From Methanobrevibacter sp. (GTDB lineage Archaea; Methanobacteriota; Methanobacteria; Methanobacteriales; Methanobacteriaceae): DNA of 35,097 bases. Shown here one piece after another: positions 328 through 16,969 of this stretch. Each line of letters begins with the position of its first letter. The stretch's first letter is position 1. Where the stretch lies: contig JAUNXF010000005.1 of NCBI GenBank assembly GCA_030539935.1, positions 1 to 35,097 of the forward strand. The letters run 5' to 3'. The translations under genes were made by a program, and so were the position numbers. Under the pieces are notes generated by a model that had not been told where the DNA came from, did not search any database, and worked only from the letters and a program-made list of their open reading frames with translations.

Positions 328-3300
328 ATGCGTATTAAACGAACGTTATTATTCAGTTTAATACTATTTTTAATGATTTTTTCAATTTCGTTTGTAAGTG
401 CAAATGAAAATGCAGTTGGCGATGTAGACGCTAACGAACTCTCGACACTATCGGTTTCAACCGATATTCAGACTGACGAAAGCATAAATGAAGTTGTTTT
501 AGACTCTGATGATAATCAGGGTTTAGAAGACGTCTCGTCGAATTCGAATGAAGAGTCATCAACATCCAATTTGGACCTTAAGGATGGCACTTCAAACAAT
601 GATGAAATTGAAGATGATGTATCTTTGTCAAATGAAAGTGATGAGGATTCATCCATTGAAAGCGATGAATGTTTAACTAATAATGGAAAAGTCCCAACAT
701 TGCGAGCAAATCCGCTCGGTGCGGATCATGAACTGAATGGTGGTACAGCTCAACAAGTTATAGATATGATGCAGCAAATTTCCAGAGAAGGTGGAGGTAC
801 CCTCTATCTGAATGGAGGAACTTATCAAGGTAGTGCTCATGCTAGAATATGGACAGGAAACGGTTACCGTGATGTTGGCAGAAATGAAATAATAAATATT
901 GCTAATGTTAGGGTTGTTGGAGGAAGTCGAACCAATCCTAATCAGGTTGCTACATTTCAAGTTGATTCTACTAGTACTTCATTGGCCTTTAGTGGTTACG
1001 GTACTTGGGATGGGAATGGAAATAGATATTATGCTGATTCAGGTATTAATTTAACTAATGTTACTTTTGAAAGTTTAAATTGTACTGGAAGATTTTTTAG
1101 TTTTAACAGCGGAAATTTGACGGATTGTGTTTTTAATAATCTGGAGTCCTATCAACACCTTTTCTTCGTAACTGGATCTTACATAGATGAAGTGCCAATG
1201 AGACTAACTAATGTTAATTTCACTAATTCCAAACAAACTTACGTGGGTGATAGCCCTCAAGGTGGTACTGATGGTACTGGTCAGTTTGGTGTAGTGTTCG
1301 GTGCTGAAATGTATGGATGTAACTTTATTAATACAAGTTCTGCTACTCACGGTGGTGCTTTTTGTCTTTCAGACGAATGGGTAAGTTCTGCATGTGTTGC
1401 AAGTAAGTTAGTTGATTGTAATTTTATCAATATTACTTCTCGATGGTTTGCAGTTTATATACATGGAAATTACACCAATACCCCTAGATTTATTACAGAA
1501 CCTCAAGTTGTACAAAACTGTAGTTTTATTAATTGTACAGCAGAAGGGGAATATGGTGGTGCACTTGGAATAAGTCATAACAATGTAATTGTAAATAACT
1601 CTGAGTTTATCAATAACACTGGTGGAGAAGGTTCCGCTATTATGGTTGGTGGAATCAGAAATACTCATGACGGATTCTTGGGTGTTAATACTGAAGGTAA
1701 TAATATTACCATTGATAATTGTACCTTTAAGGGAAATGTTGCAAAAATTGAAGGTCAAACCAGTTCTCACAGTACTGATCCTGCGTTCGATACTGTCCCA
1801 ACTGGTAATGCAGGTGCTGTTTATGTCTATGGTAATGATACAAAAATCATAGATTCCATATTTGAAAACAACACTGCAAATGAGGCTTGTGGTGCTGCAA
1901 TCTACATTTATGGTCAAAATACCACTGTCGATGGTTCTGAGTTCTATAACCATAGCAGTATAAACGGTACTATCTTTTTAGTTGGTAACGATTGTAAGAT
2001 CAAAGATTCCATTTTCGAAGATAACAATGCATCATCTACTGGTGCTTGTATTTTCATTGAAGGAAATAGGGCGGAAATCGGAAACACTACATTTGTTAAC
2101 AACACTGCCCCTAACGGTGGATGCGTATTTATTACAGGTGACCATACCTTAATAGACAATGACACCAAATTCATAAGCAATAATGCTACAAATGGTGCTG
2201 GGGTCTATATTAATGGTTCCAACACTGCAATCCTTAACAGCAGTTTCATAAACAACACTGCAGTTAATGGTTCAGGTGCATTCATTTATGGACATGATTC
2301 AGATGTAAACGGTTCTCTATTTGAAGGTAACAATGCAACAAATGGTGGAGCAGTATTCATTGAAGGAAACATCAATATACTTTCAAACAATACATTCCTC
2401 GAAAACAATGTTACCAATCAAGGTGGAGCTGTATACATTGATGGGGATAATTCAAATCTGACATATAACAATTTCACAAGAAATGAGGCAGTCCCACATT
2501 CTGAAGAAGTTTTAACAGGTCTCGGTGGAGCAATCTATGTTAGCGGTCACAACACAACTACCGTTGCAAATTCATTCTTCCACAACAAGGCCCGTAATGG
2601 ATCTGCAATCTATACCGATGGAGAAAACTTCAGACTTCACGATGATGTATTCTTCGAAAACCAAGCTTGGAGTTATCTATTGATTACAACTGCAGTTCCT
2701 GAACAAAGTCTTTATGGCAGTGAGGATGTTGAAATTAATGTTGTCCACAGAGCTGGAGATAACATTATCAATGCGATCCATAACACTAACTCCCCTGATC
2801 AAATACACTTGTGGAATGTTACTTATGTAAACAGCAGATATGGTAACATTACAACTAATAGTAGTAGTTATGTTGAACCTGTTGATGGTGTAGAAAACAG
2901 TCAAGGCGGAACATTGTTATACCAAGATGACCGTGAAGACTATCAAACCATCGAACTCGAAGTTGAACATGAAAACGGTGATGTATATTACCCTCAAACA
3001 ACAATGCAAACTAACATTTACGGAAATGTAAATATTACATTGCCTAAATCTTCATTAAGAAAAGGTAAATACATTGTAGAGGCTGAACACATTGAGGACT
3101 GGAACTATAAGTTCATATATAATATTACTACTTTCAGAATCCTTGATGCGATGGACGTATCAGTCAACAAAACAAGTGATAAGGACGAATATTTCCAAGA
3201 TGAAATAGCTGAATGGGAAATCATTGTTCATAATGTAGATAATGGTACAGATGCGGAAGATGTAACAATCACCGATCACTTGCCAAATGTATTTGAATTG

Positions 3301-6300
3301 AACAATTTAACCTACTTCTTCTTCAGCCCAGAACGTGGAATCACAAATGGTACACTTGATTTAACTACTGGAAACCTAAGATTTGGAGTATACAACATAA
3401 GTAATAATCAATGGTTCTATGGCGATGCAAACTATGATCAGAGCACTAATACATGGACATATTATTTCCTTGATTTAGATGACGAAACCATTGTTTATAC
3501 GGTATTCAATCCTGATGATTTTGTATATAAGTTTGGACCTGTTGTATACAGCAACAGCACTGATGTCTGCTATGACAACATCAGCTACAATATTCCAGAA
3601 GAGGACTGGTATTATGATACCATTACTGTAAACGGTCAGGAAATAAGATATGGTCATTTCGATCCAACTGAATTCGAACAATATTTCGGACCAGTACACT
3701 ATGATGAAGAGAACCTTACTTGGGTCTATACACACATAGGACCTGATCCATTAAATCCTGGTGAGACTACTGAATTATATACTCTATATAATATAACCAC
3801 TGGATTATGGGTTATAGATAATGTGATACACTATCCAGAGAGAAAGACAGTTACAGAGAAAGTTACCTTAACAATAAGCAACGACACTGCCAACAACGTA
3901 ACCAATATTTCCTTATTCATGAAGGACTTTGACATAAATGAAACTGGTGTCATTAATTTCTCAACCAACTGTACCAAATCTGGAGACTACACCAACGTTG
4001 TAAATGTTACAACCCCAGACTATGAATGGGACTTGTCAAACAACGTGGCTAACAGGTCAGTGCTTGTTGATCCGCTTCCAAACAAGACAGTAAGCAACAC
4101 AACTCCTTATTATCATGACTATGTCGAGTACAACTTGACAATCATGAACACAGGTAATTCAACTTACGACCAAATATTAACTGTTGTCGACAGTTTGCCT
4201 GAAGGATTAGAGTACAATACAACTGTAATTATTATCGGAGCAGATCAAGTTGGCGATACCCTTGTGGAAAACCAAAATCGTTTAATTACTTGGAACATTA
4301 CAAATATTCCTGCAAATACAAATGCAACAATCATTGTAAGGGTATATGTAAATGCTCTTGGTAACTTGACCAACAACATGACACTCATTGCCCCAAGTGG
4401 TGACAACAGAACTGTAAATGCTACAATCACTCCAGTGCCTTACACTGATGTATACGTTAATAAATCAGTTGAAAAAGAGGAATATTTCGTAGGAGACATA
4501 GTTATTTGGACTATCACTGTAACCAATGCATACAATGGTTCAAATGCAACTAATGTAAACCTTTCAGACATATTGCCTGCTGAAGTTGAATTTATCAATG
4601 CATCTATCGGTGAATATGATAATGAAACTGGAGTATTGGAAATCGGATTCATGGAAAATGGAACTAGTGTAACATTTACCATAACTTCACGTGCAAGAGT
4701 AGTTGCAAACAATGTAACCAACAATGCAACTGTAAACTGTAGTGAAGATGAATGGGATTACACTAACAACTTTGACAACGCAACCATAGACATTATTCCT
4801 ATTCCAAACAAAACAGCAAACAACACAGCTCCAAAATTTAGTGAATATGTTGATTACAACTTGACAATCATTAATGTTGGAGGAGAAGCATATACTGATA
4901 TTCTAACAGTTATTGACAGTTTACCAGTAGGTTTAGTTTACAATAATACCGTTGCTGTTATTGGAGCTGACCAAGTTGGTGATGAGGTTGTAGATGGCCA
5001 AGTTGTTACTTGGAGAGTTACAAACATCCCTGCAAATACAAATGCAACAATAATTGTAAGGGTCCAAGCAAATGCACTTGGTACATTAGTGAACAACTAC
5101 ACACTCGTTGGTCCAAAAGGATCAAACAGAACTGTTAATGCTACAATCACTGTAGATCCAAATGTTGACTTATCAGTTAACAAGACTAGTGATAGGGTAA
5201 ATTACTTTGTGAATGATACTGTCATTTGGACCATTACTGTAAGCAATGCTTATAATGCTACCAATGCTACTAATGTCATTCTTAGGGATATTTTGCCTAG
5301 TGAAGTTGAGTTTGTAACTTCAAATGGCACTTATGATAATGAGACTGGTGAATGGTATATTGGTTTCATGGAAAACGGTACCAGCACTACTATTGTTATT
5401 TATACCCGTGCTATTGAATCCAAGACAAACGTAACTAACGTAGCAAACGTATCCTGTGATGATATTGAATGGGATTACACTAACAATGTAGACAATGCAA
5501 CTATCAACATCTATCCTTTAATCAACAAGACAGTAAGTGACCCAACTCCTGACTATCATGAGATTATTGAGTACTACTTGATTGTTGAGAACACTGGTGA
5601 TGTTATTTTCAATGATTCTGTCATTCTTGTTGACAGTCTTCCTGAAGGTGTCACATTTATAGGAATGGTTGGATACGATGGTTTAGAGATTATCAGCTTT
5701 GATAACACTACCAAGAACTTGACTTGGAATGTTACCAATATTGCTGCTAATACCAATGCGACCATTACCATAAGAGCTAGATGTGATGCTGTCGGCACTC
5801 AAATCAACAACTGGACTATTTATGCTCCAGATGGATTGAACAGAACTGTAAATGCTACAATTGATGTACAGCCAGTAGTTGATATTTCTGTTGAAAAGAC
5901 TAGTGATAGGGTAAATTACTTTGTGAATGATACTGTCATTTGGACCATTACTGTAAGCAATGCTTATAATGCTACCAATGCTACTAATGTCATTCTTAGG
6001 GATATTTTGCCTAGTGAAGTTGAGTTTGTAACTTCAAATGGCACTTATGATAATGAGACTGGTGAATGGTATATTGGTTTCATGGAAAACGGTACCAGCA
6101 CTACTATTGTTATTTATACTCGTGCTATTGAATCCAAAACAAACGTAACTAACGTAGCAAACGTAACCTGTAATGAAACCGAATGGAATTACACTAACAA
6201 TGTAGACAATGCAACAATCAACATCTATCCTTTAATCAACAAGACAGTAAGCAACCCAACTCCACAATACTCTGAAATAATTGAGTACTACTTGATTGTT

Positions 6301-9300
6301 GAGAACACTGGAGATGTTATTTTCAATGATTCTGTCATTCTCGTTGACAGTCTTCCTGCAGATGTCACATTCTTAGGAATGGTTAGTTACACTGGTTTAG
6401 AGATTATCAGCTTTGATAACACTACCAAGAACTTGACTTGGAATGTTACCAATATTGCTGCTAATACCAATGCGACCATTACCATAAGAGCTAGATGTGA
6501 TGCTGTTGGCACTCAAGTCAACAACTGGACCATTTATGCTCCTGACGGAATGAACAGAACCGTAAATGCTACAATCAATGTAGATGCTATCGTTGATGTA
6601 TCTGTTGAAAAGACTGCTGATAGCGAGTATTACTTTGTGAATGATACTGTTATTTGGACCATTACCGTTTCCAATGCTTATAATGGTACCAATGCTACAA
6701 ATGTAACTCTTAGGGATATTCTTCCTAAAGAGGTTGAGTTTGTAAGTTCCAATGGTACTTATGATAATGCTACTGGTGAATGGTATATTGGTTTCATGGA
6801 AAACGGTACCAGCACAACTATAGTAATCACTACCCGTGCTATCCAATCTAAGCCAAACGTTACTAACGTTGCAAATGTAACCTGTAATGAAGAGGAATGG
6901 AATTACACTAATAACATTGACAATGCGACAATCCATATTTACCCATTGATCAACAAGACTGTGAATAATCCTAAACCTTATTATCATGAGTTGGTTAATT
7001 TCACTATAACTGTTGAAAATACTGGTAATGCTACTTTCAATGATAGTGTAGAGTTAGTTGACAATCTCCCTGAAGGTGTTTCATTTGTCCGTATGGTAAG
7101 TTATGATGGTTTGGATATTATCAGCTTTGATAACACTACCAGCAGATTGGTTTGGAATGTAACTAATGTTACTGCTTATACTAATGCTACAATTGTTATT
7201 GAAACTAGATGTGAGTTGGTTGATCTTATTGGTCAGCCTGTGACCATTAATCGTCCTGATGGCGTGAACAGAACCGTTTATGCTGAGATTGATGTACAAC
7301 CAATAGTTGACGTATCTGTTGAAAAGTCTGCTGATGGCGAGTATTACTTTGTGAATGATACTGTTATTTGGACCATTACCGTTTCCAATGCTTATAATGG
7401 TACCAATGCTACAAATGTAACTCTTAGGGATATTCTTCCTAAAGAGGTTGAGTTTGTAAGTTCCAATGGTACTTATGATAATGCTACTGGTGAATGGTAT
7501 ATTGGTTTCATGGAAAACGGTACCAGCACAACTATAGTAATCACTACCCGTGCTATCGAATCCAAGCCAAATGTTACAAACGTTGCAAATGTGACCTGTA
7601 ATGAAACAGAATGGAATTACACTAACAACGTTGACAATGCGACTATCCATATTTACCCATTGATCAATAAGACTGTGGATAATCCTGTGCCTTATTATCA
7701 TGAGATTGTTCAGTTCACTATAACCGTTGAAAATACTGGTAATGCTACTTTCAATGATAGTATAGTTTTAGTTGACGAACTCCCTGAAGGCGTTACATTT
7801 ATCAGTATGGTAAGTTATGATGGTTTGGATATAATCAGCTTTGATAACACTACCAGCAGATTGGTTTGGAATGTAACTAATGTTACTGCTAAGACTAATG
7901 CTACAATTGTTATCGAAACTAGATGTGATTGGATTGGTCAAATTGGTAACCCAGGTACTATTAATCGTCCTGATGGTGTAAACAGAACCGTTTATGCTGA
8001 GATTGATGTACAACCAATAGTTGATGTGTCTGTAGTCAAAATAGCTGATAAAGAGGAATACAAAGTTAACGAAACTGTTGTTTGGACCATTACTGTTTCC
8101 AATGCTAATAATGGTACCAATGCTACTGACGTTTTACTTAAGGATATTCTTCCTAAAGAAGTTGAGTTTGTAAGCTGCAGTCCATCTAAAGGTAATTACG
8201 ATAATGTAACTGGTGTCTGGGATATTGGTTTCATGGAAAATGGTACTAGCGAAACATTAACTATAATCTCTAAAGCTATAACTCCTAAGTACAACATTAC
8301 CAACAATGCAACCGTAAATTGTACTGTAGACGAATGGGATTATACCAATAACTTCGATGATGCAACCATTAACATTATCCCTACAATCAATAAGACTGTA
8401 AACAACACTGAACCTTACTATCATGAGATTGTTGAGTACAACTTGACCATAATCAATTATGGAGATACAGTATACACTGATAACTTAACTGTTATTGATG
8501 TATTGGATCCTGGCTTAGAGTTTATTGGAACCGTAAGCATTACTGGTGCTAATGTTGTTGTTGGCGAAACCAGAAATGGTCAAACCATATCTTGGGTCTT
8601 AACTAACATTTCTACTTCAAATGCTGTGATAACTGTAAAGGTAAGGGCAAATGCTATTGGTGTTGAAAACAACACTATGATAATCAGGACTCCGAAAGGA
8701 ACCAATATGTCTGTAAACAGGTCAATCACTGTTAAGCCTATTGTTGATGTATCAGTTAAGAAAACAAGCGACAAGGTTGAATACTTCAAGGATGGCATTG
8801 CTATTTGGACAATAACTGTTTCCAATGCTGCGAATGGTACCAACGCAACAAATGTCGTATTGGAGGATTTATTGCCAAGTGAGTTTGGATTCATTAACTA
8901 CACTGCAACAAAAGGAACCTATAATAAGAACACTGGTATTTGGACTATCGGAACTATGTTTAACGGCACTAGTGAGAAATTAGTGATTAGGTCCTATGCG
9001 AAAGTCGCTCCAAGAACAGTTACCAATGTGGCTAATGTGTCTTGTGAGGAAGACGAATGGAACTACACTAACAATATTGCTAATAGAACCGTTAAGATAT
9101 ATGATATTCCAGACTTAAACAAGACAGTAAATAATGCAACTCCGTTCTATAATGACACAGTTGTATACACTTTGACAATTAAAAACGTAGGTAATGCTAC
9201 TTACACAGATAATTTGCGTGTAATAGACAGTTTGCCTAATGGTTTAACATTTGTTAAGACTGTAAGTTTAACCGGTGCTAAGTTAATCAAACAAGTTGTG

Positions 9301-10293
9301 AATGGTCAAACCATTACTTGGACAATTACAAACATTGCTGCAAAATCCAGTGCAGTGATTAAAGTGAAAGTCAAAGTAAAAGCGCTTGGTGAATTGACTA
9401 ACAATTTGACTATTGTAGGTCCAAGAGGCACTAACAAGACTGTTAACTGTACTATTGATCCTGTCCCATGGGCTGATTTGGCAGTATTCAAAACAAGTGA
9501 CCATTTCGGTGTTGATTGTCATAATGACACTACAGTCATTTGGACTATAAAAGTTGTCAATTATGGTCCTAATACTGCAGTCAATTCAATTGCTAAAGAT
9601 ATATTGCCTGCTGGTTTAGTCTATATTGATGATGATTCCAATGGCAAATACAACCCGGGAACTGGTGTGTGGACTATTGGTAACCTTGCGAAAGGAAAGT
9701 CAGTAGTGATACATATTAAGACTAAGGTTGACGCAATTGATACAGTTATCAATAACCCTGTTGTTGTTTCATCAGATACTTATGATCCGAATAAAACCAA
9801 TAATCGTGATAACAGTTCCATTAAAGTCATTTCAGTTGCTGACTTGGCTATCATTAAAGAGGCTAATGTGACTAAGTTGGCTATTGGGGATGAGTTCTCA
9901 TATCTTATTACTGTTATTAACTATGGTCCGGATACTGCAGTCAATGCTCGTGCGTATGATGTGTTGCCTGATGGATTGAAGCTCTTGAGCTTTGAAGCGT
10001 CTAAGGGTAGTTATAATCCGAAAAACGGTACTTGGACTATTGGTGATATGAAGAAGGGTGAAAGAGTAACTCTGAAGATTAATGTGGTTGCTGTAGTGAG
10101 AGGCACTATTATTAATGAAGCGAGGGTTGAAAGTGATACTTTTGACAATGACACTTCAAACAATTATGACTCTGCTACTGTGGTTGTTGAAACTAAAGGC
10201 CATATTCCTATGAGGCATACTGGTAATCCGTTGGTATTTGTTTTATTGTCTTTGTTCGCGATAGTGGGAATAACATTAAAAAGGAAAAGTTAA
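328..10293 (+). CDS. Giant adhesin-like surface protein: beta-helix plus alternating DUF11 repeats
   Basis: A 3321-residue secreted protein predicted to sit on the cell surface. Residues 1-26 form a signal peptide (MRIKRT, hydrophobic core, then a cleavage-like VSA). A Ser/Asp/Glu-rich low-complexity stretch follows to about 125. Residues about 132-785 carry short repeats of the type GGAVYIxG...N.F..N, typical of right-handed parallel beta-helices. A beta-rich linker of about 150 residues comes next. From about 942 to 3290 there are ten DUF11-like modules beginning VDxSVxKTxD, alternating with eight that begin NKTVxNxTP. The AB unit is 238 residues in the central part. Asn-x-Ser/Thr sites are extremely dense. 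The C-terminus has TGNP, a hydrophobic helix and KRKS. Such proteins are abundant in Methanobrevibacter and are thought to mediate attachment; the ligand is unknown. It has its own promoter and terminator. Confidence 0.93.
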   Translation: MRIKRTLLFSLILFLMIFSISFVSANENAVGDVDANELSTLSVSTDIQTDESINEVVLDSDDNQGLEDVSSNSNEESSTSNLDLKDGTSNNDEIEDDVSLSNESDEDSSIESDECLTNNGKVPTLRANPLGADHELNGGTAQQVIDMMQQISREGGGTLYLNGGTYQGSAHARIWTGNGYRDVGRNEIINIANVRVVGGSRTNPNQVATFQVDSTSTSLAFSGYGTWDGNGNRYYADSGINLTNVTFESLNCTGRFFSFNSGNLTDCVFNNLESYQHLFFVTGSYIDEVPMRLTNVNFTNSKQTYVGDSPQGGTDGTGQFGVVFGAEMYGCNFINTSSATHGGAFCLSDEWVSSACVASKLVDCNFINITSRWFAVYIHGNYTNTPRFITEPQVVQNCSFINCTAEGEYGGALGISHNNVIVNNSEFINNTGGEGSAIMVGGIRNTHDGFLGVNTEGNNITIDNCTFKGNVAKIEGQTSSHSTDPAFDTVPTGNAGAVYVYGNDTKIIDSIFENNTANEACGAAIYIYGQNTTVDGSEFYNHSSINGTIFLVGNDCKIKDSIFEDNNASSTGACIFIEGNRAEIGNTTFVNNTAPNGGCVFITGDHTLIDNDTKFISNNATNGAGVYINGSNTAILNSSFINNTAVNGSGAFIYGHDSDVNGSLFEGNNATNGGAVFIEGNINILSNNTFLENNVTNQGGAVYIDGDNSNLTYNNFTRNEAVPHSEEVLTGLGGAIYVSGHNTTTVANSFFHNKARNGSAIYTDGENFRLHDDVFFENQAWSYLLITTAVPEQSLYGSEDVEINVVHRAGDNIINAIHNTNSPDQIHLWNVTYVNSRYGNITTNSSSYVEPVDGVENSQGGTLLYQDDREDYQTIELEVEHENGDVYYPQTTMQTNIYGNVNITLPKSSLRKGKYIVEAEHIEDWNYKFIYNITTFRILDAMDVSVNKTSDKDEYFQDEIAEWEIIVHNVDNGTDAEDVTITDHLPNVFELNNLTYFFFSPERGITNGTLDLTTGNLRFGVYNISNNQWFYGDANYDQSTNTWTYYFLDLDDETIVYTVFNPDDFVYKFGPVVYSNSTDVCYDNISYNIPEEDWYYDTITVNGQEIRYGHFDPTEFEQYFGPVHYDEENLTWVYTHIGPDPLNPGETTELYTLYNITTGLWVIDNVIHYPERKTVTEKVTLTISNDTANNVTNISLFMKDFDINETGVINFSTNCTKSGDYTNVVNVTTPDYEWDLSNNVANRSVLVDPLPNKTVSNTTPYYHDYVEYNLTIMNTGNSTYDQILTVVDSLPEGLEYNTTVIIIGADQVGDTLVENQNRLITWNITNIPANTNATIIVRVYVNALGNLTNNMTLIAPSGDNRTVNATITPVPYTDVYVNKSVEKEEYFVGDIVIWTITVTNAYNGSNATNVNLSDILPAEVEFINASIGEYDNETGVLEIGFMENGTSVTFTITSRARVVANNVTNNATVNCSEDEWDYTNNFDNATIDIIPIPNKTANNTAPKFSEYVDYNLTIINVGGEAYTDILTVIDSLPVGLVYNNTVAVIGADQVGDEVVDGQVVTWRVTNIPANTNATIIVRVQANALGTLVNNYTLVGPKGSNRTVNATITVDPNVDLSVNKTSDRVNYFVNDTVIWTITVSNAYNATNATNVILRDILPSEVEFVTSNGTYDNETGEWYIGFMENGTSTTIVIYTRAIESKTNVTNVANVSCDDIEWDYTNNVDNATINIYPLINKTVSDPTPDYHEIIEYYLIVENTGDVIFNDSVILVDSLPEGVTFIGMVGYDGLEIISFDNTTKNLTWNVTNIAANTNATITIRARCDAVGTQINNWTIYAPDGLNRTVNATIDVQPVVDISVEKTSDRVNYFVNDTVIWTITVSNAYNATNATNVILRDILPSEVEFVTSNGTYDNETGEWYIGFMENGTSTTIVIYTRAIESKTNVTNVANVTCNETEWNYTNNVDNATINIYPLINKTVSNPTPQYSEIIEYYLIVENTGDVIFNDSVILVDSLPADVTFLGMVSYTGLEIISFDNTTKNLTWNVTNIAANTNATITIRARCDAVGTQVNNWTIYAPDGMNRTVNATINVDAIVDVSVEKTADSEYYFVNDTVIWTITVSNAYNGTNATNVTLRDILPKEVEFVSSNGTYDNATGEWYIGFMENGTSTTIVITTRAIQSKPNVTNVANVTCNEEEWNYTNNIDNATIHIYPLINKTVNNPKPYYHELVNFTITVENTGNATFNDSVELVDNLPEGVSFVRMVSYDGLDIISFDNTTSRLVWNVTNVTAYTNATIVIETRCELVDLIGQPVTINRPDGVNRTVYAEIDVQPIVDVSVEKSADGEYYFVNDTVIWTITVSNAYNGTNATNVTLRDILPKEVEFVSSNGTYDNATGEWYIGFMENGTSTTIVITTRAIESKPNVTNVANVTCNETEWNYTNNVDNATIHIYPLINKTVDNPVPYYHEIVQFTITVENTGNATFNDSIVLVDELPEGVTFISMVSYDGLDIISFDNTTSRLVWNVTNVTAKTNATIVIETRCDWIGQIGNPGTINRPDGVNRTVYAEIDVQPIVDVSVVKIADKEEYKVNETVVWTITVSNANNGTNATDVLLKDILPKEVEFVSCSPSKGNYDNVTGVWDIGFMENGTSETLTIISKAITPKYNITNNATVNCTVDEWDYTNNFDDATINIIPTINKTVNNTEPYYHEIVEYNLTIINYGDTVYTDNLTVIDVLDPGLEFIGTVSITGANVVVGETRNGQTISWVLTNISTSNAVITVKVRANAIGVENNTMIIRTPKGTNMSVNRSITVKPIVDVSVKKTSDKVEYFKDGIAIWTITVSNAANGTNATNVVLEDLLPSEFGFINYTATKGTYNKNTGIWTIGTMFNGTSEKLVIRSYAKVAPRTVTNVANVSCEEDEWNYTNNIANRTVKIYDIPDLNKTVNNATPFYNDTVVYTLTIKNVGNATYTDNLRVIDSLPNGLTFVKTVSLTGAKLIKQVVNGQTITWTITNIAAKSSAVIKVKVKVKALGELTNNLTIVGPRGTNKTVNCTIDPVPWADLAVFKTSDHFGVDCHNDTTVIWTIKVVNYGPNTAVNSIAKDILPAGLVYIDDDSNGKYNPGTGVWTIGNLAKGKSVVIHIKTKVDAIDTVINNPVVVSSDTYDPNKTNNRDNSSIKVISVADLAIIKEANVTKLAIGDEFSYLITVINYGPDTAVNARAYDVLPDGLKLLSFEASKGSYNPKNGTWTIGDMKKGERVTLKINVVAVVRGTIINEARVESDTFDNDTSNNYDSATVVVETKGHIPMRHTGNPLVFVLLSLFAIVGITLKRKS
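5164..8019 (+). repeat. Four consecutive 714-bp in-gene repeats
   Basis: Within the adhesin gene, four units of exactly 714 bp begin at about 5164, 5878, 6592 and 7306. The stretch 5182-5405 equals 5896-6119 base for base, and 6623-6843 equals 7337-7557. The flanking units differ in length (717 and 720) and are more diverged. This points to recent duplication or gene conversion in the centre of the array. Confidence 0.9.
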
Positions 10294-10857
10294 AAGTGTT
10301 TTTTTTGTTTGGGGAAATTTATTTTTCCCAAATCTTTTTATTTTTTTAAAAAACTAATTTTTATACTATTTTTAATTATTTTTAGAAATTTATTGAAATT
10401 CTATTTTTAAACTATTTTTAAAACTTTAACTATTTTTAATCTAATTTAAGCTTTAACATTTTTTAAACTATTTTTAGAATTATTCATTGAAAATTTTGTT
10501 AGAATATTTTCGTCTATATAATTGTTTTTTTAATTAATTATTTTAATTCTATTTCAAAATTATATAAAATAATCATGGTTAATTTAAATTAAATTAATTT
10601 GATTTAGAAACATATCTTTTAATATCTATATCATCTACCCTATAACCTATATAATATTATAATCTATATCATCCACATATCATCTACAATTTATATTTTA
10701 TTAAAATTTTAAAAAATGAATAATTAGTAAAGTTTTAGATTAAGTAAATTCAAAAATTAATCATGTAAAAGAAAAAGTTTATTATGGTGAAATAAAAGAT
10801 AGGAAAGTTAAAACGTAATGATATTGATGATAAAATAATTTATGTTATGGTGATTAG
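10294..10857. other. AT-rich intergenic region with short repeats
   Basis: No gene is supported here. It holds the adhesin terminator, at least five copies of CTATTTTTA (starting 10366, 10401, 10412, 10430 and 10468), and three copies of ATATCATCYAC (10628-10638, 10666-10676 and 10677-10687). The right end must hold the yjbQ promoter. GGTGATTAG ends directly before the yjbQ ATG. Confidence 0.6.
10308..10332 (+). terminator. Adhesin transcription terminator
   Basis: A hairpin with arms TTTGGG and CCCAAA, continued by AAA/TTT pairs, follows the adhesin stop codon by about 15 bases. It is preceded by T8 and followed by TCTTTTTATTTTTTT. In archaea the oligo-T tract is the main signal; the hairpin is extra. 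Confidence 0.6.
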
Positions 10858-11283
10858 ATGGCTGTAATTAAAAAAACTTTAAAGATTGATTCAAGTTCTG
10901 ATTTTCAGATTATAAATATTACAAATGATATTGTAACTATTTTAAATGATATAAATAAAGAAAAGAATATTAGTGTTGGAATAGTGAACATATTCACAAA
11001 ACATTCCACAAGTGCCATTTGTGTAAATGAGAATGAAAAGGGACTATTGAATGATTTTGAAAAGGTCTTAAAGGATATCGTTAAGGAAAATGATAATTAT
11101 GAGCATGATTTTATAGATAACAATGCAGCATCCCATATAAGGGCATTTTTGCTTGGTTCATCTGAAACTGTTCCAATAGTTGATGGAAGGTTGGATCTTG
11201 GAACTTGGCAATCCATATTCTTTGTGGAATTGGATGGTCCGAGAAGAGGCAGAACAATTGACTTAACTTTTATGGGCGAATAG
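10858..11283 (+). CDS. yjbQ: YjbQ / UPF0047 family protein
   Basis: 141 residues, the usual length for this family. Recognised by the pattern FTKHSTSAI near residue 48, the segment DNNAASHIRAFLLGSSETVP, and the C-terminal LDLGTWQSIFFVELDGPR followed by GRTIDLTFMGE. The bacterial member YjbQ has been linked to a low-level secondary thiamine phosphate synthase activity, but the true role in archaea is not settled. GGTGAT lies just before the ATG. The next gene starts 27 bases downstream, so the two are probably cotranscribed. Confidence 0.9.
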   Translation: MAVIKKTLKIDSSSDFQIINITNDIVTILNDINKEKNISVGIVNIFTKHSTSAICVNENEKGLLNDFEKVLKDIVKENDNYEHDFIDNNAASHIRAFLLGSSETVPIVDGRLDLGTWQSIFFVELDGPRRGRTIDLTFMGE

Positions 11284-11310
11284 CTAATTTAATTAATTGA
11301 GGAAATGTTT

Positions 11311-11559
11311 ATGGAACTCTTAAATAATTTGGATAAGGTGCACACTACAGAAATGGGTGTAGACAGAATAAAAAGAAATATCTCTGTAGATGTGGATGAC
11401 ATTGTAAAATATTGTATAGATAAGATAAAACAGGATAATGCTGTAATCGAAAGAAAAGGAAAAAACTATTATGTGACTGTTGATGGGATAATAATTACTG
11501 TAAATGCATCCAGTTATACAATCATCACTGCCCATAAAGAGAAAAATAGTAAGAATTAG
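11311..11559 (+). CDS. DUF3781 family protein
   Basis: 82 residues, recognised from HTTEMGVDRIKRNISV, ERKGKNYYVTVDG and a C-terminal NASSYTIITAHK as a DUF3781-type small protein of unknown function. The ATG at 11311 is preferred because GAGG at 11299-11302 is eight bases before it. The in-frame ATG at 11305 would leave only two bases, and would add MF at the front. It follows yjbQ by 27 bases and probably shares its transcript. No signal peptide, membrane segment or metal motif is visible. Confidence 0.75.
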   Translation: MELLNNLDKVHTTEMGVDRIKRNISVDVDDIVKYCIDKIKQDNAVIERKGKNYYVTVDGIIITVNASSYTIITAHKEKNSKN

Positions 11560-11615
11560 TTAAAGAAGATATTGATTAAAAAAAAAATAAAGTAAAGGAA
11601 GATATTAAAAAAAAT

Positions 11616-11646
11616 AAAATAAATAGAAATAAATTCTATTTATTTT
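11616..11646. terminator. Bidirectional terminator between two convergent genes
   Basis: A perfect 11-bp stem, AAAATAAATAG / CTATTTATTTT, with a 9-base loop lies between the DUF3781 gene and the HD-RyR gene. Its right arm includes the last codons and the TAG stop of the minus-strand gene (11636-11638). Being symmetric and A/T-only, with T-rich tracts on both strands, it can serve both transcripts. Confidence 0.55.
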
Positions 11647-14473
11647 TTACAATCTTCAAGCCAACTTTTTCACATAATTCTGGAAGTTGTTTAATTGTAT
11701 TCATATTTGCATCTCTGACTGTGCGTCTTAGTAAGTTCCAAGGAACTAAATTAGGGTTGATCATCTTTTCGTCATCTCTTTCTTTTCCGTATGACCAGCC
11801 TAATCTTTCTCTCATAAGACACCATTCGTTATGTTCCTTTATACATATTTCCCTAATCAGACCCTCATCATCCTTTCCAAATATGACGGCATCTCCAGGC
11901 TCATCAATAGGGACAAAATTATATCCCTCTTGAGCTAAGTTCTTGACTAGGAAATCAGTATATTTGTAATTGGAATACTTGATGTAAGGAGGCAGGTCTT
12001 TAAACAATATCTCTTCTTCATGTTTATTATGCATTTCAATGGTGAGTAGCCTAATTTTTGTTCTAACAATTTTCAGGCCAATTGATTTGGCATAAGCCGG
12101 AATGTTTCTAACAGGGTCTTTGTCATATTCCTGAATTTCAGGGTCAAGCTCAGTCCATGGAACTAAATATGGGGTGATAAGTTTTTTCTCATCTTTTTTA
12201 GGGCCTAATGTCCAACCTGTACCCTCTCTTTCCTCACACCAATCATCATGTTCCAAAATAGCCAAATCAGTTATCTCCTCTTCGGAGAATTCTAAAACAG
12301 CATCCCTCTCATCGTCTTTATGTGCAAGTTCACATCCAATCATTGCCAATTTCTTAGGAATTGATCTGGCTTGTCTAATGTTTGACATCTTAAATTGAGG
12401 AGTCAATTCATCAAAAGGAATGATTTCCTCATATTTCTTTTTGAAGTTATAGAATTTTATTCCATCAAATTCATCTTTATCCACGCCTTTTGAAATAAGC
12501 TCATCACGTCTTTCCTTTAATTTATAATATTTTAAACAGTCATCACATTCTCTGTCTATCTCTTTTTTATTTACATCATATTTTGCTTTGATGTCTTCCA
12601 TTTCTGAAATGACACTATTCAATTCACCTATTTCTTCATATTTGTTTCTTTGTTCCAAATATTCCTTTGTAAGGTAGTTGGATGCTTCTCTTCCAAATTC
12701 CTCTTCATCGTCTTTAAATTTCTTCTCCAATTCATCAACAATCTTATGATTTTTCTCGAAGTCCAAATATTCCTCGCTGAGATAAGCCAAAGCCTCTTTT
12801 TCGAATTTAACTTCCTCTGCCTTATACTCTTTTTCCAACTCTTCAATTTCCTTAAAGATAGGGTCACCTTCTTTGAAATCGAATGATTGGTATTTCATGT
12901 CACTGATCTTTTCAATATATTCCTTTCGCTTTTCCTCAAATTCAGTAGGATTTTCATGGATTTTCATTAAAAGATCAAAATACTGATTTTCAACAGTTTC
13001 ATTATATTTGTTGTGGATTTCGATTGCTAATTTTTCAACATTTCTTGCCAAGACTTCAGGGGCTTGAATATCCTTTTTAACGATATTCCTCATTGCATCC
13101 TCTTCAATGTTTCGGGTCTTGTCCTTCTCGATACGTGTATGAACTTTCAAGTCATTTCTGAAAACTTTTTTAATATCCAAAACGTCTTTCAAGTCCTTAT
13201 TCTCTTTTTTAGATGAAAAGTCGATACCCATGGACCCATGTTTGATGATATATTCAACGTTCATCATATAATCGTCAATATCGATATGGAGTTCATTCAC
13301 GTGAGACCTTTGCTTGTCTTTGAAACCGAATGGCTGGCGATTCCATTCCTGAAGTTCATCACACAATTTCAATAGGAATGCCAAAGGATTATCCCTTGGG
13401 TCCATAAGGCCTAACTGAAACTGTTCATAGTTTTTATTATTTAATGTATTGGCATAGTAATTATGCAATAATATTGCTGTTGCACTATCCACAATAGGGT
13501 AGAAGAAGAAATCTGATTTTTTCGCATATTTTTGAATCAAATATCCATAGGAGTCCAATACTAAAATTGATGAGAAGAATCCATGGTCGATGAATCCATC
13601 TTCATTCATTTGTTGAGGGAAATTATCCAAATGCTTCTTTAATGATTTTATATCAACATCAAATTCTCTAGCGATTTTATGGGCCATAATGTCTGTAGGT
13701 TTGAACAGGTCCAAACCTTCCACATCATCCCATTCATCTAAGTACTTGTCTGCAAAATTAGGGCAAATCTTAAGGATATGGTTAAATTCATCAAAGTTCT
13801 TAAAGTCTATACCCATATTAACTGAATAGTCTGGGGAGATAGGTTGAATTCCCTCTTTAATAAACTGCTTTAGTTGTTTTCCGATAATCTCAACAGGATA
13901 ACCGATATCGTGGAAAAGTGATGCAATACCCCAACGGTATAAAAATTCCTCATTAGAGAATTCACCATCGATTTTGAAGTATTTGGTATAGCCGCTGTTA
14001 ATCACATAGTCATAAAAGAAATCCTGATAATTATTGTTTTTGGAATAAATGGCCAAACCTAAAAGGAACACATTAACAGAGTGGATAAAATGGTCTCTTT
14101 GCTTTTCAATCAAATCTCCAGTGTTCTCCTCATAGCCTTTCATAATCTTTACCAAATCAAGCAGAGTGTTAGGCTCATTAATGAGATTTTTAGGGACTGA
14201 ATTGTCTTCTACAATCTTTTCAGCTCCCTCTTTTTCATTCTCCTTATCCTTTTTTGCACTTTTATTCTCAGAAGTGATTTGATAAATCATGAAAAATGTT
14301 TGATAAATATCATAAGCACTATAAGTACTTTCATTCTCTAAGAAAACATCTATAGATGCTTTTAAAAGGTCCTTATATCTGTGACCATTGTAGTAGTCAT
14401 CATATAATGTAAGCCCTTCAAAGAATTCATCCACATACTTTTTGAAATTATTTTCTCCTTCTCCTTCAGTCAT
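11636..14473 (-). CDS. HD phosphohydrolase-coiled coil-tandem RyR domain protein
   Basis: 945 residues, cytoplasmic, with no signal or membrane segment. The first half carries an HD metal-phosphohydrolase signature: H128/H131 in DHFIHS, H188-D189 in SLFHDIGYP, H297 (HGFFSSILVL), H337 (AILLHNYY) and D372 in PLAFLLKLCDELQEW. Residues about 455-690 are Glu/Lys-rich and predicted as long helices or coiled coil. Two RyR (ryanodine-receptor repeat) domains close the protein: about 733-807 with HDDWCEER, GWTLGP and YLVPW, and about 870-944 with HNEWC, GWSYG and NLVPW. Each is preceded by a short helical segment with SN near its start. HD domains of this kind hydrolyse phosphoester or nucleotide substrates; RyR domains in prokaryotes are poorly understood. 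The AGGTGG ribosome site six bases before the ATG supports the start. The gene is monocistronic. Substrate and role are not known. Confidence 0.85.
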   Translation of the reverse strand: MTEGEGENNFKKYVDEFFEGLTLYDDYYNGHRYKDLLKASIDVFLENESTYSAYDIYQTFFMIYQITSENKSAKKDKENEKEGAEKIVEDNSVPKNLINEPNTLLDLVKIMKGYEENTGDLIEKQRDHFIHSVNVFLLGLAIYSKNNNYQDFFYDYVINSGYTKYFKIDGEFSNEEFLYRWGIASLFHDIGYPVEIIGKQLKQFIKEGIQPISPDYSVNMGIDFKNFDEFNHILKICPNFADKYLDEWDDVEGLDLFKPTDIMAHKIAREFDVDIKSLKKHLDNFPQQMNEDGFIDHGFFSSILVLDSYGYLIQKYAKKSDFFFYPIVDSATAILLHNYYANTLNNKNYEQFQLGLMDPRDNPLAFLLKLCDELQEWNRQPFGFKDKQRSHVNELHIDIDDYMMNVEYIIKHGSMGIDFSSKKENKDLKDVLDIKKVFRNDLKVHTRIEKDKTRNIEEDAMRNIVKKDIQAPEVLARNVEKLAIEIHNKYNETVENQYFDLLMKIHENPTEFEEKRKEYIEKISDMKYQSFDFKEGDPIFKEIEELEKEYKAEEVKFEKEALAYLSEEYLDFEKNHKIVDELEKKFKDDEEEFGREASNYLTKEYLEQRNKYEEIGELNSVISEMEDIKAKYDVNKKEIDRECDDCLKYYKLKERRDELISKGVDKDEFDGIKFYNFKKKYEEIIPFDELTPQFKMSNIRQARSIPKKLAMIGCELAHKDDERDAVLEFSEEEITDLAILEHDDWCEEREGTGWTLGPKKDEKKLITPYLVPWTELDPEIQEYDKDPVRNIPAYAKSIGLKIVRTKIRLLTIEMHNKHEEEILFKDLPPYIKYSNYKYTDFLVKNLAQEGYNFVPIDEPGDAVIFGKDDEGLIREICIKEHNEWCLMRERLGWSYGKERDDEKMINPNLVPWNLLRRTVRDANMNTIKQLPELCEKVGLKIVKNK

Positions 14474-14862
14474 TAGACCACCTATTCATAAAGAATCATC
14501 TTAAATTTTGTTTTTTTTTAAAATTTATACTAATTTATACTATTAAATTTTGTTTTTTTTAAAACTTTACTATTATTTTTTTTTTAAAATCAGATGCTTT
14601 TAAAATTATAATATAATCCTATTTTATTTTTAGTTAATAATAAATATTATGAAAATGTTTTAGGATTCTTTTAAAAAATTGAATAAAAATATAATAATTT
14701 GGGGTTTGATTTATTGAAAGATAATGGTAGGTGGTTTGATTTTAAAAAAGAAATAAGATTTTATCAAAAAAATAAAAAAAGAAATAAGATTTAATCTAAA
14801 AAAATAAAAAAAGAAAAAGTTGGTTTAATTTTTTTAAAAAAAATAAGAAGAGGAAACTGAAT
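14474..14862. other. Intergenic region: HD-RyR promoter and pheT terminator
   Basis: No gene is supported in this 389-base stretch. The left part holds the HD-RyR promoter. The right part, read on the minus strand downstream of pheT, holds successive long oligo-T runs (TTTTTTTATTTTTTT twice, each followed by a similar GATAAAATCTTATTTC-like segment), fitting archaeal termination of pheT. The middle shows only two copies of GGTTTGATTT about 30 bases apart. Confidence 0.5.
14522..14541 (-). promoter_or_regulatory. Duplicated TATA-like element before the HD-RyR gene
   Basis: On the minus strand the ten bases AGTATAAATT occur twice back to back, 49-68 bases before the start codon at 14473. Either copy fits an archaeal TATA box, so there may be two transcript starts ten bases apart. 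Confidence 0.5.
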
Positions 14863-16515
14863 TTATATGAATTCAATTTCAAATGCTATAACGGGATATT
14901 CCAATTCAAAGTTTCTAATGACTTCCGGTGCCACTTCACCAAAGAATCCAGTTATCTTGCCGTTTTTAGACTCGCCAGTCACATCTGCAACTCTTCCTGG
15001 AATAAAGGTTGTGTTGCTTGAATCGGATATTTCCATGCTGTATCCCAAGTTGGAAAGTACGCTGGATACAGTTGATTTGATTTCAGTGAAGTTTGCAGAG
15101 CTGTGACAGATTATTCCCGCTAATTTCTTCACTTGCTTGGTTTTGTTGAATGGCTCACTATCCATATATAATACATCACCAATTTCAAAGATCTTTTGTG
15201 GAAGGTCCTCATGCTTGTTGTCTTCGAGGAATTCCATTAAACTATTGAGCAGGCTTGTTCTAATCATTGTTCCGCTGATTGTAATCGGTTTTGATACTTG
15301 AACATGGTCAATCTCTTCCTGATTCATCTTTTCATATTGGCTTTCTTCACTGGTTAGCATTAAGCTCATCACTTCTTGGAAGCCTAATCCCACCATGACT
15401 TCCCTAATGGTCTGTTCACCTTTGAACCAGTTGTTTTCATTGGCGACAGTCACAATATCCGGTAATTTTGCTTCAACCGCATTGATGTGATATTGGATTG
15501 TTATGTTTTCAACAATATCCACTTCGTGTAATATGTCTACCCTATAAGGTGGAATGAATACTTCCAATTCGTTTTCATTTATGATATTGGCATCAAATCT
15601 TGCCTTTTCAAGCAATCCCTTAATGTCTTCAGCGGTTAAATCGGTTCCGCCAATCAATTCATTGGCCAAGTCAACATGAACGTTTCTGACCTTTGGGGTG
15701 AAGTCAGGGCAGACTATGGTTTCATCTTCATAAATGACTTCCATGGATTTCACTTTTCCTCCAACTTCAGCAAAGGATGCACAGATAATGTTTAATGACT
15801 GTTCAACTGCTCTTTCATCAGTTCCAGTCACATCAACAATGATGTTTGCGGTGTCTTCCTTAAGTTTGGTCAATTCACCGTTGATGATTGGAGGCATGGA
15901 CAAGACCTGTCCATCCTTGTCAATGATGAGAGGGTATTTGTCGAATTTGTTGATTAAATGAGCATATTTCTCTCCTGTCTTATGATTTTTCAAAATCTCT
16001 TCAGGGCTCATTTCCTCTTCCATTTCGAGAGGAACAAATTTTGGTTCATCTTTAGGAGTTGCTAGGTATTTGTATGGTCCGCTTATGACATCGCTGTTGT
16101 GCACTCCAATAGCAACCTTTTTACGGTCTCTTCCGATTACCCAGTGCAGGTTTTCCTGGAAATCCATGATGTATTTGATCTTATCTCCAGAGAAATCCAC
16201 TCCTTCAATTTTTGCAAATCTTATATAAGGGCGAATTTCTGCAACATCCTTGCTTACATAAACCTTTTCGCCAGATGGCTCAATCTCATATTTCGGAAGT
16301 CCAGTTTCAAGGCCTAAGAATCCTTTGAATGACCTTGCCACCCCTTCAACAGATAAATTGTCCGGACGGTTTGGGAAGAATTCCACTTTGATTTCTTCAT
16401 CATCATAATCTTCAATATCACTTGCCATCATAGGTAAGGTATTGATCAGCTCATCTTTTTCCATATCAATACCTAAATCTTTTAAATCTTGATATTTAAA
16501 TGTAATTACAGGCAT
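14863..16515 (-). CDS. pheT: Phenylalanine-tRNA ligase beta subunit
   Basis: 550 residues, the typical archaeal length, shorter than the bacterial beta chain. The N-terminal B1 region ([11 protein letters not shown], then [20 protein letters not shown]) is followed by the B3/4 editing region ([17 protein letters not shown]), the B5 region ([18 protein letters not shown]) and the catalytic-like domain ([39 protein letters not shown]). With PheS it attaches Phe to tRNA-Phe in an alpha2-beta2 enzyme. pheS is not in the window. GGAG six bases before the ATG supports the start. No lesion is seen. Confidence 0.96.
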
Positions 16516-16612: not shown

Positions 16613-16969
16613 TCATAATCCGAATATGCTTATAAAGAATAATGATTCAATAACAAAATGCAATGCTCTATGAGGTAACCATGGCATGTGTCTAATGACA
16701 ATTGAATGGCTTACATCCAATAGGAAATGTATTAAAGCTGCTAAGAATCCCACTTTAAATGAGAAGAATACGCAAGATATAAAAATAAAGTGGAAACACG
16801 CCTCTAAAGTTTCATGAACAATCCAGGTTTCCATTACAGAATCTAAAGCGCTACTGATGATGCCACCGAATATTATGTAAAAGTCTCTTACATAGTCCCA
16901 TACCAATCTGCTGTGGACCTCATCACTTACAGCAAGTGCAATAGCCACATAAAACCATAATACTTCCAT
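16613..16969 (-). CDS. Small conserved-looking membrane protein, unknown function
   Basis: 118 residues, with three or four hydrophobic segments (about 3-14, 27-40, 55-85 and 100-117). I do not recognise a family. It is notably rich in His and acidic residues near membrane segments: SDEVHSRLVWDYVRDFY, ETWIVHETLEACFHF, HFLLDVSHSIVIRHMPWLPH. These could bind a metal or be catalytic in the membrane. A strong ribosome site, GAGGTGAC, lies five bases before the ATG, which makes it a real gene. It lies upstream of pheT on the same strand with a 97-base gap, so cotranscription is possible. Confidence 0.8.
   Translation of the reverse strand: MEVLWFYVAIALAVSDEVHSRLVWDYVRDFYIIFGGIISSALDSVMETWIVHETLEACFHFIFISCVFFSFKVGFLAALIHFLLDVSHSIVIRHMPWLPHRALHFVIESLFFISIFGL

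Follow-up and report, generated by a model that had tools for sequence, protein, structure and literature searches.

HD-RyR fusion proteins of methanogens and bacteria as possible nucleotide-signal responders of TIR- and STAND-linked defence or stress systems

A 35,097-nucleotide stretch of DNA from Methanobrevibacter sp. (contig JAUNXF010000005.1; here called the window) encodes a protein in which a likely HD phosphohydrolase is joined by a linker to two RyR domains. We slightly favour, with a probability of roughly 0.55, the reading that this HD-RyR protein acts as the responder in a TIR/STAND system for defence or stress, Thoeris- or NLR-like in kind, and is gated by a nucleotide signal. 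Since TIR and NLR-like immune genes lie beside its relatives or are fused to them, a role as receptor-effector for an ADP-ribose-type immune signal is probable. The gene and its parts, all on the minus strand, are as follows.

11636 to 14473, (-): whole gene, predicted HD phosphohydrolase, linker, RyR, RyR; 945 aa, ATG start
13124 to 14473, (-): predicted HD-type domain, residues 1-450; ligand candidates H131, H188, D189, H297, H337 and D372
12428 to 12988, (-): charged, helix-rich linker insertion, residues 496-682, 187 aa
12050 to 12427, (-): RyR domain 1, residues 683-808; H742, W745 and D784 match H75, W78 and D117 of the phage protein RyDEP
11639 to 12031, (-): RyR domain 2, residues 815-945; H881 and W884 are kept

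The first-pass annotation had reported two tandem RyR-like domains, and profile searches bear this out. The RyR family (Pfam PF02026) matches the protein with E=4.8e-24 and 84.9 bits against a cut-off of 27.4, and a profile search of the genome found two separate places above the cut-off (45.1 and 39.4 bits), with no other RyR match in the host genome. A full-length model was obtained with pLDDT 78.7 and pTM 0.74. In a Foldseek comparison its tandem RyR pair aligned, over roughly the length of both repeats, with the human RyR3 Repeat12 structure that contains dantrolene and ADP (E=2.4e-6, prob 1.00), and the top structural matches are RyR3 Repeat12 with ADP, ATP or AMP-PCP. A sequence search of the PDB brought up Repeat12 structures of ryanodine receptors and bacterial RyR proteins, with 35TM as a weak match; 35TM is the crystal structure of phage RyDEP with 3'cADPR (PMC13232231). 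RyDEP binds 2'/3'cADPR and cleaves it through an H75/D117 pair (PMC13232231).

RyDEP (MN234187 gp78, locus L128) was used as the reference in an alignment with all RyR domains found. Of the 45 archaeal first RyR domains, 45 have its H75, 44 its W78 and 45 its D117; for the 41 bacterial RyR domains the corresponding counts are 40, 40 and 37, the remainder being mostly gaps. The position of H100 is relaxed (H, T or S), and the second archaeal RyR domains keep the H and W and have N at the D117 position in 42 of 45 cases. Conservation of this pocket at the sequence level supports binding of an ADPR-type signal, and the earlier idea that the RyR pair is a nucleotide-signal receptor now looks likely, as the ligand residues of a protein that binds such signals are kept. 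It is no proof of catalysis, because none of eight phage RyDEP homologues assayed cleaved the signals although six bound them (PMC13232231).

That the N-terminal domain is an HD phosphohydrolase is likely, a call which rests on the ligand pattern and on sub-threshold Pfam matches, since the fold is unproven by profile or structure search. Across 60 aligned sequences, drawn from the four phyla Methanobacteriota, Bacillota, Chloroflexota and Actinomycetota, the residues H131, H188, D189, H297 and H337 never vary and D372 is kept in at least 90%; conservation is also seen in alignments of 29 and 19 sequences. The order H...HD...H...H...D is that of binuclear HD enzymes, and the ligands lie on helices or helix ends in the predicted model of the domain (pLDDT 85, pTM 0.84). 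The two extra histidines presumably place it in a binuclear phosphodiesterase-like subclass (YqeK, HD-GYP) and not among the SAMHD1/dGTPase types. No Pfam, NCBIfam or PADLOC family scored above its cut-off for the N-terminal 450 residues. The sole Pfam family to match more than two of the 60 aligned members was PF01966, with weak, sub-threshold matches in nine (E<=1; best E 0.035, window protein E 0.11). Foldseek with the HD model gave no confident HD structure, with nothing among PDB or viral structures reaching E<1e-3, and the best sensible match was exopolyphosphatase PPX (prob 0.69 and 0.54, low TM), the C-terminal part of which is HD-like. The HD profile matched nothing among PDB sequences. 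The HD signature described at first pass holds for its conserved ligands, but no HD profile above cut-off or confident fold match goes with it.

HD-RyR is a stable fusion across phyla. The loci were sampled as the best 80 matches of one genome-wide scan seeded with the HD part, with patterns built from archaeal sequences; the ORF and domain calls in relatives are our own, and many contigs are short, so that neighbours are under-counted. Among these best 80 matches are 75 HD-part loci, which reach Clostridia, Chloroflexota and Actinomycetota including Coriobacteriia. Bacterial HD homologues with a complete ORF carry one RyR domain each (~580 aa), and archaeal ones carry two.

In this best-80 sample, a TIR or DUF4062(-STAND) gene lies within 200 bp of HD-RyR, always on the same strand, at 25 of the 45 bacterial loci. 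Within 5 kb of HD-RyR there are 38 TIR/DUF4062 genes in 344 kb, compared with 5 in 226 kb beyond that distance. The bacterial partners are TIR-LRR, DUF4062-NACHT/AAA-WD40 or -TPR, and TIR-NB-ARC-TPR proteins, and at four loci (L082, L087, L120, L124) TIR and HD-RyR occur with no other obvious adjacent effector. A Glu is invariant in the aligned TIRs, at what we take to be the usual NADase position. A relationship of DUF4062 to TIR was rejected on a negative hhalign profile comparison and, because DUF4062 is not detectably TIR, we make no claim that it produces an ADPR signal. RyR is also fused to a TIR pair in a 514-aa TIR-TIR-RyR protein (L146:1154-2698), and a 1728-aa protein combines DUF4062, WD40, TIR and RyR (L145:1099-6285(+)). 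The L145/L146 loci (8164-11966(+) in L146) also hold two proteins with four TIR domains each.

Other arrangements are seen beside bacterial HD-RyR genes. In an Oscillospiraceae locus, a TIR-NB-ARC-TPR protein resembling plant TIR-NBS proteins lies upstream of HD-RyR and a TIR-bearing paralogue lies downstream (L109:7489-9915 and 11754-14141). A TrkA_N-RyR fusion, similar to potassium-channel regulators, immediately follows HD-RyR at L084:6937-8778 and L094:6839-8458. A predicted SLOG-SLATT membrane gene adjoins HD-RyR in about 16 loci of the best-80 sample, directly downstream at L081, L086, L089, L097, L099, L103, L105, L110, L114-L116 and others. Seven of its proteins were scanned, of which three had DUF4231 above cut-off and five had SLOG (YAcAr) below threshold; they showed no similarity to RyR, TIR or HD. 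The SLOG-SLATT protein is a possible second responder.

In Methanobacteriaceae, HD-RyR homologues are present in 33 of 139 genomes, mostly ~750 aa long and frequently arranged in tandem pairs. Two archaeal species encode TIR-TIR-HD-RyR-RyR fusions (L038:9436-12648 and L039:5843-9133; TIR_2 E ~1e-24, ThsB_TIR ~4e-7), and TIR genes lie just upstream of HD-RyR at L035, L060 and L071. Directly downstream of the two fusions, which keep the HD ligands, are HD-RyR paralogues with degraded HD ligands (L038:7166-9433, L039:9137-11365), and each fusion and paralogue are predicted to form an active/inactive pair. TIR_2 was found in 25 of the 33 HD-RyR genomes compared with 24 of the 106 others (Fisher p=5.6e-8, shared ancestry ignored); within one genus p for the co-occurrence lies between ~3e-5 and 7e-8, depending on the genus size assumed (55-70), kinship again ignored, and part of the overlap is made up of the fused or adjacent TIRs themselves. 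Eight of the 33 genomes are without TIR_2, and at most Methanobrevibacter HD-RyR loci the neighbours are kinase-HSP70/FHA or other genes, not TIR. A 1220-aa WD40-repeat protein with a C-terminal RyR domain is encoded at L046:3311-6973, and at L048:7474-9857 an HD-RyR relative is split into three ORFs and is probably a pseudogene.

No TIR was found in the window's own genome, which is 75% complete. It encodes one DUF4062 protein, on another contig (G000:C82:481-5166(-), locus L144), of 1561 aa and with a DUF4062-ATPase-WD40 (STAND) architecture. This protein has 29-34% identity over ~1000-1580 residues to proteins adjoining bacterial HD-RyR (L081, L091, L093, L101), with 31% over ~1320 aa to a bacterial DUF4062-STAND-WD40 partner. 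Its gene adjoins HSP70, Ser/Thr kinase and FHA genes, homologues of which adjoin HD-RyR in other Methanobrevibacter (44-71% identity). Because it is homologous to bacterial partners and has neighbours that adjoin HD-RyR elsewhere, it is a concrete candidate, and judging from sequence the likely partner in trans of the window protein. An immune or stress role, as had been suggested for the window gene, is thus supported by the TIR, DUF4062-STAND, TIR-LRR and TIR-NB-ARC neighbours and TIR fusions of its relatives. The suggestion of a single-protein switch fares less well, as relatives sit in multigene loci and a plausible partner is encoded elsewhere in the host genome.

The window gene itself is an intact, open reading frame in the window translation (11636-14473(-)). 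It had been described as standing alone between housekeeping genes, rightly, as only ordinary neighbours lie beside it.

11560 to 14862, no strand: insertion interval; the flanking genes are adjacent in eight congeners
14863 to 16515: PheT-like gene (name from sequence), flanks the HD-RyR gene
11305 to 11559: small conserved ORF, flanks the HD-RyR gene
10858 to 11283: YjbQ-like gene (name from sequence), ordinary neighbour

In those eight congeners the two flanking genes are ~0.1 kb apart, with no HD-RyR gene between them. Because this empty site is present, the window gene was probably inserted singly in the host lineage, which is the simplest account; repeated loss is a possible alternative. 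No clear target-site repeat or mobile element was found at the insertion edges, and GC content does not set the gene apart as foreign (34% in both gene and window). The window protein has no firm place in the tree and falls inside no starred set.

The charged helical region noted at first pass exists as the 187-aa linker, predicted to be helical at low model confidence. Only 1-38 aa occupy this position in each of 41 aligned homologues, and against these the expansion is seen in the window protein alone. The linker has self-similarity with a period of 36 (score 103, compared with a shuffle mean of 40 and a top score of 100 in 200 shuffles). It had been proposed as a long helix coupling the RyR domains to the hydrolase but, because it is absent from the homologues, it is not a general coupling device.

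In the proposed mechanism, a sensor (TIR, TIR-LRR, TIR-NB-ARC or DUF4062-STAND-WD40/TPR) would detect a trigger and make an NAD-derived ADP-ribose-type signal. The RyR pair, with its Repeat12-like fold, would bind this signal in the H/W/D pocket of the first domain, as the example of RyDEP suggests. Binding would then switch on the metal-dependent HD phosphohydrolase through its H...HD...H...H...D site, and the enzyme may degrade a nucleotide, halting growth or virus replication. In the host species, the singly inserted gene may work with the DUF4062-STAND-WD40 protein of the other contig, which is homologous to the bacterial partners and its putative partner. Several observations count against this mechanism: the HD matches in Pfam stay below threshold and no confident structure goes with them, TIR was not found in the 75% complete host genome and eight of the 33 archaeal HD-RyR genomes have none, DUF4062 does not resemble TIR by profile, most Methanobrevibacter loci have neighbours other than TIR, and the H100 position of RyDEP is relaxed.

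The protein might instead terminate the signal, as a host counterpart of ring nucleases: the first RyR domain (RyR1) would open cyclic ADPR as a glycosidase of the RyDEP kind, and HD would cut the resulting ADPR, turning TIR signalling off. We rank this as the main rival, though an unlikely one. The catalytic pair H75/D117 of RyDEP, which hydrolyses 2'/3'cADPR (PMC13232231), is kept in RyR1 and in the bacterial RyR domains, and two hydrolytic modules in one chain suit a stepwise breakdown. Yet the phage homologues that bound the signals did so with no cleavage by any of the eight (PMC13232231), the second archaeal RyR has the D to N change, and the loci at which TIR and HD-RyR lie by themselves would be left with no obvious effector, unless the TIR is itself the effector. 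We consider it less probable again that HD-RyR is a general regulator, in which the RyR pair senses ordinary adenine nucleotides and HD takes part in kinase/FHA/HSP70 phospho-signalling instead of TIR immunity. The nucleotides bound in the top Repeat12 matches are in keeping with this, as are the kinase-HSP70 and FHA genes at several Methanobrevibacter loci and in the homologous module of the host genome; against it are the fusions with TIR and the close linkage of TIR/DUF4062 genes to HD-RyR in bacteria, and a patchy presence and insertion at an otherwise empty site that look like accessory cargo.

The last alternative, that in the host species the window gene is a stranded copy with no partner or no catalysis, seems the most doubtful. 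It is a single copy with a unique linker expansion in a genome where TIR was not found, and elsewhere some paralogues have lost HD ligands and a relative is split over three ORFs. However, the HD ligands and RyR1 pocket residues of the window protein are all intact, its ORF is open, and the host genome offers the DUF4062-STAND-WD40 candidate partner.

Several known systems resemble HD-RyR in part. RyDEP (mycobacteriophage DyoEdafos gp78), like the phage RyR sponges described with it (PMC13232231), is among the closest. It has in common with HD-RyR PF02026, the H75/W78/D117 positions (in RyR1 and bacterial RyR) and the expected ADPR-type ligand, but is a 138-aa phage anti-defence homodimer, whereas HD-RyR is an HD-fused protein of host genomes, with RyR in tandem in the window protein. 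HD-RyR was not found in viral contigs (two scans) or plasmids, and a search of phage records gave one weak partial match (33%, MT836912); a phage anti-defence origin is thus not favoured. Many relatives resemble Thoeris in pairing a TIR gene with an adjacent, separately encoded responder that has a domain for binding nucleotides. However, known Thoeris sensors are domains such as SLOG or macro, whereas RyR is the only one found in the window protein; the Thoeris effector is SIR2 or a membrane protein, and here it is a predicted HD phosphohydrolase. The partners, unlike those of Thoeris, are often NLR-like (LRR-, NB-ARC- or WD40-bearing). Because the protein has no known Thoeris sensor and no TIR is adjacent in the host genome, we do not file HD-RyR as Thoeris. 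The animal ryanodine receptor Repeat12 likewise has two tandem RyR repeats per chain, but belongs to a channel, while HD-RyR is a soluble enzyme fusion with no channel. Anti-phage defence already offers a precedent for HD enzymes under the control of nucleotide signals, in CloA of Clover (PMC12265719) and other HD nucleotide hydrolases. CloA is a dGTPase-type HD, whereas the window HD is coupled to a RyR sensor and carries the additional histidines typical of binuclear HD phosphodiesterases.

HD-RyR may tentatively be regarded, at somewhat less than even odds, as a new class of host receptor-effector for TIR-made ADP-ribose signals, with NLR-like sensors, in Clostridia, Chloroflexota, Actinomycetota and methanogens. 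The repertoire of TIR immunity would gain an HD-type responder and take in methanogens, and the NLR-like sensors of bacteria (TIR-LRR, TIR-NB-ARC, DUF4062-STAND-WD40) would be linked to a nucleotide messenger. It is an old and still open question in calcium signalling whether cyclic ADP-ribose acts on ryanodine receptors and, if so, where. The question is also raised in PMC13232231. If the proposal is true, reading TIR signals is an old job of RyR domains which animals have re-used in calcium channels, and a soluble bacterial two-gene unit (TIR-LRR and HD-RyR) would let RyR domains be tested directly as receptors of TIR products. We found no description of HD-RyR with TIR in Pfam, NCBIfam, PADLOC or the literature searched, in which subscription journals and Thoeris were thinly covered, and a description elsewhere is possible; among the papers searched for RyR with TIR or HD in prokaryotes, PMC13232231 alone was relevant.

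Two further genes of the window may be mentioned. A 118-aa ORF at 16613-16969(-), membrane-like by eye, is also present next to the PheT-like gene in 13 congeners, with 66-95% conservation. At 328-10293(+) a 3321-aa secreted adhesin-like protein is encoded, which is rich in repeats and has, by eye, long near-identical tandem repeats.
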